The notes below the pieces were generated by a model. It did no database searches, was not told the DNA's origin, and saw only the letters and a list, made by a program, of their open reading frames with translations. Positions 34,621-35,633 of a stretch of 44,887 nt of DNA are shown piece after piece. The position numbers and the translations under genes were made by a program. Each line of letters begins with the position of its first letter. Position 1 is the stretch's first letter. Source of the stretch: Acidobacteriota bacterium (GTDB taxonomy: Bacteria > Acidobacteriota > Terriglobia > Bryobacterales > Bryobacteraceae); contig JAKAJI010000004.1 of assembly GCA_021813825.1 (NCBI GenBank), positions 1-44,887 of the forward strand, in the 5' to 3' direction.

Positions 34621-35259
34621 ATGACGTACACACGGGCGATCGGAATCGGGGCGAGCAAGATCATCCGGATGATCGTCCACGGGCTTGCCCTGTCGAAGAT
34701 CCATCCGAACGTCCTGACGTTTCTTGGTCTGGTCATCAACATCGCCGCTGCGGTGACCCTGGCCGCGGGGCGGTTTCGCGCCGCCGGGGCGGTCATCATC
34801 GGAGCGGGCCTGTTCGACATGGTCGACGGCCGTGTTGCCCGGGCGACGAACCAGGTTACACGTTTCGGCGGCTTTTTCGATTCGGTTCTCGACCGTTACT
34901 CCGATCTCGCGCTCCTCATGGGCCTGCTGGTTTACTACGGCACGATCAACCGTCCGTTCTACGTGGTGCTGACGGCGATCGTGATGACCGGCTCTGTGAT
35001 GGTTAGCTATACGCGCGCCCGGAGTGAGAACACGATTCCAAGCTGCAAGGTCGGGTTCATGGAACGGCCGGAACGCGTGGTACTGCTGATCATCGGAGCG
35101 CTGTTTGACCGCATGGCGCCGGTGCTTTGGGTCATCGCGGTGCTTTCCAACATCACGGTGGCGCACCGGATGGCGTTCACCTACCAGGAAACGCGGCGGC
35201 TGGAAGATGCCCAACTGCGCGGAGTGCCGAGCGCGCAGCGCAGTGTGGAGCTGAAGTAG
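34621..35259 (+). CDS. CDP-alcohol phosphatidyltransferase
   Basis: Signature DMVDGRVARATNQVTRFGGFFDSVLDRYSD. Confidence 0.9.
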   Translation: MTYTRAIGIGASKIIRMIVHGLALSKIHPNVLTFLGLVINIAAAVTLAAGRFRAAGAVIIGAGLFDMVDGRVARATNQVTRFGGFFDSVLDRYSDLALLMGLLVYYGTINRPFYVVLTAIVMTGSVMVSYTRARSENTIPSCKVGFMERPERVVLLIIGALFDRMAPVLWVIAVLSNITVAHRMAFTYQETRRLEDAQLRGVPSAQRSVELK

Positions 35260-35272
35260 GCCCGCGAGCAAG

Positions 35273-35300
35273 AAAAAAGCCCCGGCTTTCGCCGGGGCTT
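35273..35300 (-). terminator. rho-independent terminator for a minus-strand transcript
   Basis: AAGCCCCGGC-TTTC-GCCGGGGCTT perfect stem; on the minus strand it is followed by TTTTTT. Confidence 0.75.
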
Positions 35301-35342
35301 GCATGAACCCTGGAAACCGCTAGCCCCTATCGGGGCGGCCTG

Positions 35343-35411
35343 CTACTTTTTCTTCTTCGGAGCAGCCTTCTTCGCGGGCTTCTTGGCGGCTTTCTTTGTC
35401 GCGTTCTTCAT
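35343..35411 (-). CDS. 22-aa Lys/Ala-rich peptide MKNATKKAAKKPAKKAAPKKKK (histone H1-tail-like)
   Basis: ATG at 35411, TAG at 35345..35343; RBS AGGGAG 9 nt upstream; own promoter and terminator. Below ORF-track cutoff. Confidence 0.6.
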   Translation of the reverse strand: MKNATKKAAKKPAKKAAPKKKK

Positions 35412-35467
35412 CGAGTGATTCTCCCTAACATCAAATTTGCGATCCAGAAAGATCGCAGTGTGATTCA

Positions 35468-35496
35468 TATATAAGGTTGTTTGAGATGAAAGTCAA
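35468..35496 (-). promoter_or_regulatory. sigma70-type promoter driving the 22-aa ORF
   Basis: Minus strand TTGACT (35496..35491), 17-nt spacer, TATATA (35473..35468). Confidence 0.7.
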
Positions 35497-35633
35497 GAAA
35501 AAAATGCACGGCGCCGTCCCACGGAGGGGGCTGCGGCAGGATTCGAAACCAAAAAACACATCTCACAAGAATTGTTTTGGCCTCACCGGCAACATTTTGG
35601 TGCCTCCATGTTTCAAGTGGGAGTCACCCGCCG

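Follow-up and report, generated by a model that had tools for sequence, protein, structure and literature searches.

The window analysed here is a 44,887-nt stretch of DNA from a bacterium of the family Bryobacteraceae (phylum Acidobacteriota), and its minus strand carries a small putative transcription unit. When the sequence was re-read, every element listed in a first-pass annotation of this DNA was found in place on that strand. The promoter (35468–35496), recognized from sequence and conservation, consists of TTGACT (35496–35491), a 17-nt spacer, and TATATA (35473–35468). Immediately 5′ of the −35 hexamer lies a T-rich tract, CATTTTTTTC (35497–35506), which is conserved both in a 29-sequence alignment and in the units of Acidobacteriaceae and may act as an UP-element-like sequence. 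The predicted RNA, of about 190 nt, opens with a 7-bp stem-loop, TGCGATC...GATCGCA (35457–35438), that is backed by covariation and is followed by the leader and ribosome-binding box AATTTGATGTTAGGGAGA (35420–35437, with AGGGAG at 35426–35421), near-invariant in alignment A1. An open reading frame (ORF; 35343–35411) then runs from an ATG at 35411 to a TAG at 35343 and encodes the 22-aa peptide MKNATKKAAKKPAKKAAPKKKK, in which 11 of the 22 residues are Lys. The 3′ untranslated region (3′UTR) holds a hairpin, GCCCC-GATA-GGGGC (35336–35323), with stems of this kind enriched in the units of the family, and the unit ends in an intrinsic terminator (35270–35300) made of a 10-bp stem (35300–35277) with a GAAA loop and then a T run, which sequence and conservation likewise support.

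Downstream of the unit and convergent with it lies a CDP-alcohol phosphatidyltransferase gene on the plus strand (34621–35259). The first-pass annotation had placed the unit between this gene and rlpA; among relatives, rlpA proved to be a frequent, though not constant, neighbor, and the CDP-alcohol phosphatidyltransferase gene was not the usual one. In many Bryobacteraceae an inverted element, AAAAC-N16-GTTTT, occurs about 55–80 nt upstream of the promoter (in the window at 35549–35580, minus strand, CCAAAACAATTCTTGTGAGATGTGTTTTTTGG). It was rejected as a regulator site of the unit, being absent from several loci, including one with a different upstream gene (L014/L112), and is probably a component of the divergent promoter of rlpA.

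Motif scans of the single window sequence gave weak signals. The promoter scan did not reach the consensus of the tool, and five terminator-like sites were counted against a shuffle mean of 3.0 (sd 2.0), which is near expectation; chance was therefore judged only through comparison among relatives. In a DNA search, 40 of 61 relatives gave a match, and nearly all of the strong matches were in the same family. In an alignment of 29 loci, all 29 kept an open frame and the same architecture, namely CATTTTTTTCTTGAC, TTATATATGAATCAC, the hairpin, TTGATGTTAGGGAGAATC, ATGAAGAACGC, a Lys-rich frame of 20–25 codons, and the terminator, and the sequence between and around these conserved elements varied. 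It is by this conservation that the unit is judged to stand above chance. Furthermore, 97 of 102 units had a 17-nt promoter spacer, the −35 hexamer was TTGACT or TTGACA in all of them, and terminators were present in 95 of the 102, compared with 2 in shuffles. Four of the seven pairs of the 5′ hairpin had changes on both sides, and 96.4% of positions were paired versus 26–41% for slid partners, in an alignment that was not fitted to the structure; both families together gave 36 double-change cells, in an alignment that was model-fitted and so leans to that structure. Between stop codon and terminator, 51 of 74 Bryobacteraceae units had a perfect stem of 5 bp or more, versus 10.7 in shuffles.

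Gene contexts, for which ORFs were called mechanically, placed the downstream neighbor in convergent orientation in the window itself and in the majority of the cases mapped, and the neighbors varied between families. Thus, the unit appears to be monocistronic and not the leader of a neighboring operon. A short Lys-rich ORF with hairpins and a terminator downstream of it would also fit a lysine-sensing attenuator, in which a Lys-codon-rich leader peptide precedes a regulated operon. That reading is contradicted by gene order, the next gene being convergent and not co-oriented in the window and most contexts, and the Lys codons are interspersed with conserved Ala, Pro, and Thr codons; we give it next to no credence. 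With a promoter and a terminator of its own, no gene co-transcribed with it, and an ORF selected as protein (see below), the unit shows in silico some of the features by which dual-function sRNAs are recognized.

The Rfam search returned a match, below threshold, to the proteobacterial sX6 RNA/small-protein family (RF02225; cmscan 28.9 bits, E 1.2e-4, gathering score 40); the unit is not in Rfam as searched. Like the unit, sX6 carries an sRNA annotation and encodes a small protein, having first been taken for an sRNA and later been shown to be protein coding (PMC5559785). The alignment, however, joins a compositional GAAGAAG stretch to the GCCCCGGC terminator and skips most of the intervening model, and no sX6 match was obtained with eight other units, mostly from Acidobacteriaceae and mostly ORF-less, or with one ORF-less Bryobacteraceae unit. 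With its score below threshold and its match compositional, sX6 was rejected as a homolog by the tests run here, and membership of that family is highly improbable.

A purely structural sRNA, in which the Lys-rich frame would be incidental, had been considered equally possible in the first-pass annotation. The strong conservation of leader and terminator and the existence of ORF-less relatives would suit a non-coding RNA, but the coding statistics, drawn from 102 distinct units of which none was chosen by its coding pattern, argued firmly against it. The pN/pS ratio was 0.19 in Bryobacteraceae and 0.24 in Acidobacteriaceae, versus 0.7–2.6 in the two wrong frames. Minority bases were concentrated at the third codon position, with a fraction of 0.245 versus 0.033 (first) and 0.060 (second) in Bryobacteraceae and of 0.393 versus 0.117 and 0.128 in Acidobacteriaceae. 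Moreover, the peptide MKSATKKAAPKKKAAPKKKK occurred 10 times and was encoded by 10 distinct nucleotide sequences, so codons had changed synonymously, and an in-frame ATG lies a few bases 3′ of GGAGA in 181 distinct units. By sequence comparison, these data indicated that the ORF is under protein-level selection and establish its coding function to a high standard, leaving a non-coding sRNA very unlikely. Together with the conserved promoter and terminator, they bear out the earlier description of an autonomous unit with a Lys-rich peptide. The unit also held up, in almost all relatives, on the points where it had been expected to be vulnerable, namely that promoter, ORF, and terminator might not be co-conserved, that synonymous sites might be no more variable than nonsynonymous ones, or that the frame might be disrupted.

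Across the 181 units, the peptides consisted of Lys (0.49), Ala (0.30), and Pro (0.05) as fractions of residues and were usually 12–32 aa long within a full range of 12–76 aa, the length variation being in-frame. Peptides of Acidobacteriaceae mostly start with MATKK and have 12–32 aa, and expanded variants at this locus have 66 and 76 aa, made up of tandem PAKKA- or KKAAKK-type repeats. Such a low-complexity polycation, rich in Lys, Ala, and Pro and variable in repeat number, has the composition of an H1 or HupB tail, which agrees with the resemblance to a stand-alone histone tail that had been pointed out earlier. A HupB-type HU protein was rejected, as a whole product of 22 aa leaves no room for an HU domain. 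Neither Pfam nor NCBIfam gave a match for the 22-mer, and Pfam, including the histone H1-like HC1/HC2 families, gave none for the 66- and 76-aa variants. The peptide is expected to be disordered, and its composition suggests that it could bind nucleic acid, polybasic composition being no proof of such binding.

Elsewhere in the same genome, contig C98 (G000; L002:268–834) bears a Lys-rich gene for a 189-aa protein with an acidic N terminus and an AAPKK-repeat tail, which matched HC2 weakly (PF07382, E 0.007, below cutoff). This gene and the other Lys-rich DNA matches in the order, in family f3, were set aside as longer H1-like proteins lacking the unit's leader. In one genus of Bryobacteraceae (g8; L276, L278, and L279), a similar hairpin and a TTGATTGGGAGAATC leader are followed by a long MATKKPNDAPAPAA...PAKKA repeat protein, and no micropeptide is present.

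The distribution of the unit was then surveyed with custom covariance models, whose E-values are rough. A model reaching from the promoter to codon 8 located the unit in 138 of 150 Bryobacteraceae genomes, or in 105 of 108 when only those of good quality are counted, and almost always as a single copy; one genome, G031, has two copies, on contigs C138 and C79. Models extended with the first weak matches returned Acidobacteriaceae matches in 35 genomes of the phylum sample. Model R3, which covers promoter and leader and ends at the start codon region, found the unit in 184 of 201 Acidobacteriaceae genomes and in 77 of 80 genera. The family names used here follow the records returned by a named scan, which included Bryobacterales, Bryobacteraceae, and Solibacteraceae records alongside Acidobacteriaceae, with Edaphobacter, Granulicella, Acidobacterium, and Terracidiphilus among the named matches; a few stray names probably reflect mislabelled bins or chance similarity. 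The search pattern of that scan contained coding positions, and its loci were therefore excluded from the coding statistics. One member of another family in the same class has MAKKPAKKAAKKKK. Among the listed genomes of family f3, which belongs to the same order, none had the unit. Weak matches also came from a family of another class, f76 (L272 and L434), and had Lys-rich ORFs of 29–37 aa and a TTGAC/TATA promoter, with leaders that were similar to each other and unlike that of the unit; these could be distant relatives or a case of convergence.

Given that model R3 does not include the ORF, the presence of the ORF could be read independently of the match. In 21 genomes, the promoter, leader, GGGAG box, and terminator were kept and no Lys-rich frame was present at the locus (eight genomes in genus g54, six in g52, two in g333, one each in g49 and g331, and three in g261, the last belonging to Bryobacteraceae). 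The ORF must have been lost more than once, since other g49 species keep it and g261 lies in another family. The genus g52 is the Granulicella group, with six species, one of them Granulicella mallensis. Across these six, column identity from the GGGAG box to the terminator was 0.90–0.94, versus 0.30–0.54 upstream and about 0.52 just downstream; single-base indels within this interval exclude a conserved frame, and the terminator stem carries compensatory changes. The ORF-less g52 transcript contains three copies of the motif AGGCAA, the first of which sits in an 8-nt loop with a mean unpaired probability of 0.79–1.0. The same motif was found in the 3′UTRs of 57 of 89 Acidobacteriaceae coding units versus 1.3 in shuffles, a count that ignores shared ancestry and is inflated by relatedness, and nearly all ORF-less Acidobacteriaceae units have one to three copies, with the same disregard of shared ancestry.

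These ORF-less loci could instead be dying remnants of a gene that makes only a small protein, its leader and terminator serving mRNA stability and translation. Strong selection at the protein level agrees with that view, as does the small number of ORF-less cases in Bryobacteraceae, where G576 looks like a decay intermediate. Against it, no other intergenic part in the six g52 species is as well conserved as the ORF-less transcript, whose terminator stem shows compensatory changes, and AGGCAA copies persist or multiply in g52, g54, g333, and G308. We therefore regard a small-protein gene alone as possible but considerably less probable than a gene with two functions. A second, RNA-level function in Acidobacteriaceae appears well supported by these comparisons, and the dual-function alternative raised by the first-pass annotation thus draws its support, strongest in this family, from relatives that kept the RNA without the ORF. 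The case for an RNA role in Bryobacteraceae is weaker: the window RNA has no AGGCAA motif, and the three ORF-less units (G460, G570, and G576) share little similarity 3′ of the GGGAG box and could be decaying.

Our favored reading, to which we assign a probability of about 0.62, is that the unit is a monocistronic gene whose transcript encodes a Lys/Ala/Pro polycation and, at least in Acidobacteriaceae, also acts at the RNA level, which would make it a dual-function RNA. The strong-looking promoter would drive a short transcript bounded by the 5′ stem-loop and the terminator. Translation would yield a polycation, usually of 12–32 aa, equivalent to a histone H1/HupB-type tail without a folded domain, and this peptide would most likely serve as an abundant, nonspecific counter-ion for a polyanion, whether nucleic acid (DNA, rRNA, or mRNA) or some other. 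At least in Acidobacteriaceae, the same transcript would have a role of its own through the conserved AGGCAA beside the ribosome-binding site and terminator, which persists after ORF loss; regulation might proceed by base pairing of AGGCAA or through a protein that binds it. A bolder version, in which the RNA is dual-function throughout the class, the histone-tail-like micropeptide chaperones or packages either its own RNA or the targets of that RNA, and the RNA function is indispensable in lineages without the peptide, such as Granulicella, seems unlikely.

In the literature searched, neither this gene nor any comparable small RNA or micropeptide of Acidobacteria was found described, and the unit was in none of Rfam, Pfam, and NCBIfam as searched. 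We conclude that it is an undescribed micropeptide gene and probably a dual-function RNA. Acidobacteria are dominant soil bacteria. A near-universal and usually single-copy gene, below normal gene-calling length, offers a defined locus at which to study the role of a stand-alone histone-like tail of 13–25 aa in a bacterium. Furthermore, some species naturally have the peptide and others lack it (e.g., Edaphobacter versus Granulicella mallensis), so that its role can be told apart from that of the RNA with no engineering.

Among known systems, SgrS would be the closest working analogue. In most enterics SgrS includes the SgrT frame, and Yersinia keeps an SgrS without the ORF (PMC4021124), a pattern matched by the ORF-less units here. 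In both cases, here at least in Acidobacteriaceae, a single short autonomous transcript combines an ORF with a conserved RNA segment adjoining the terminator. The sequences are unrelated, however; SgrT is an inhibitor of the glucose transporter, whereas the peptide here is a polycation, and the RNA motif here is a repeated AGGCAA. VcdRP of Vibrio cholerae is similarly a small RNA that carries a short ORF, of 29 aa, together with a base-pairing segment (PMC8672173), but it differs in sequence and phylum and has no known function in common with the unit. The peptide itself is best compared with the tails of HupB in mycobacteria, Hc2 in Chlamydia, and AlgP in Pseudomonas, which share its Lys/Ala/Pro composition with PAKK-, KAAK-, and KPAA-type motifs and, in Hc2, a variable repeat number (PMC5676037, PMC2848022, PMC9239181). 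Those are much longer proteins, whereas here the tail usually stands alone, as 12–32 aa with no folded domain.
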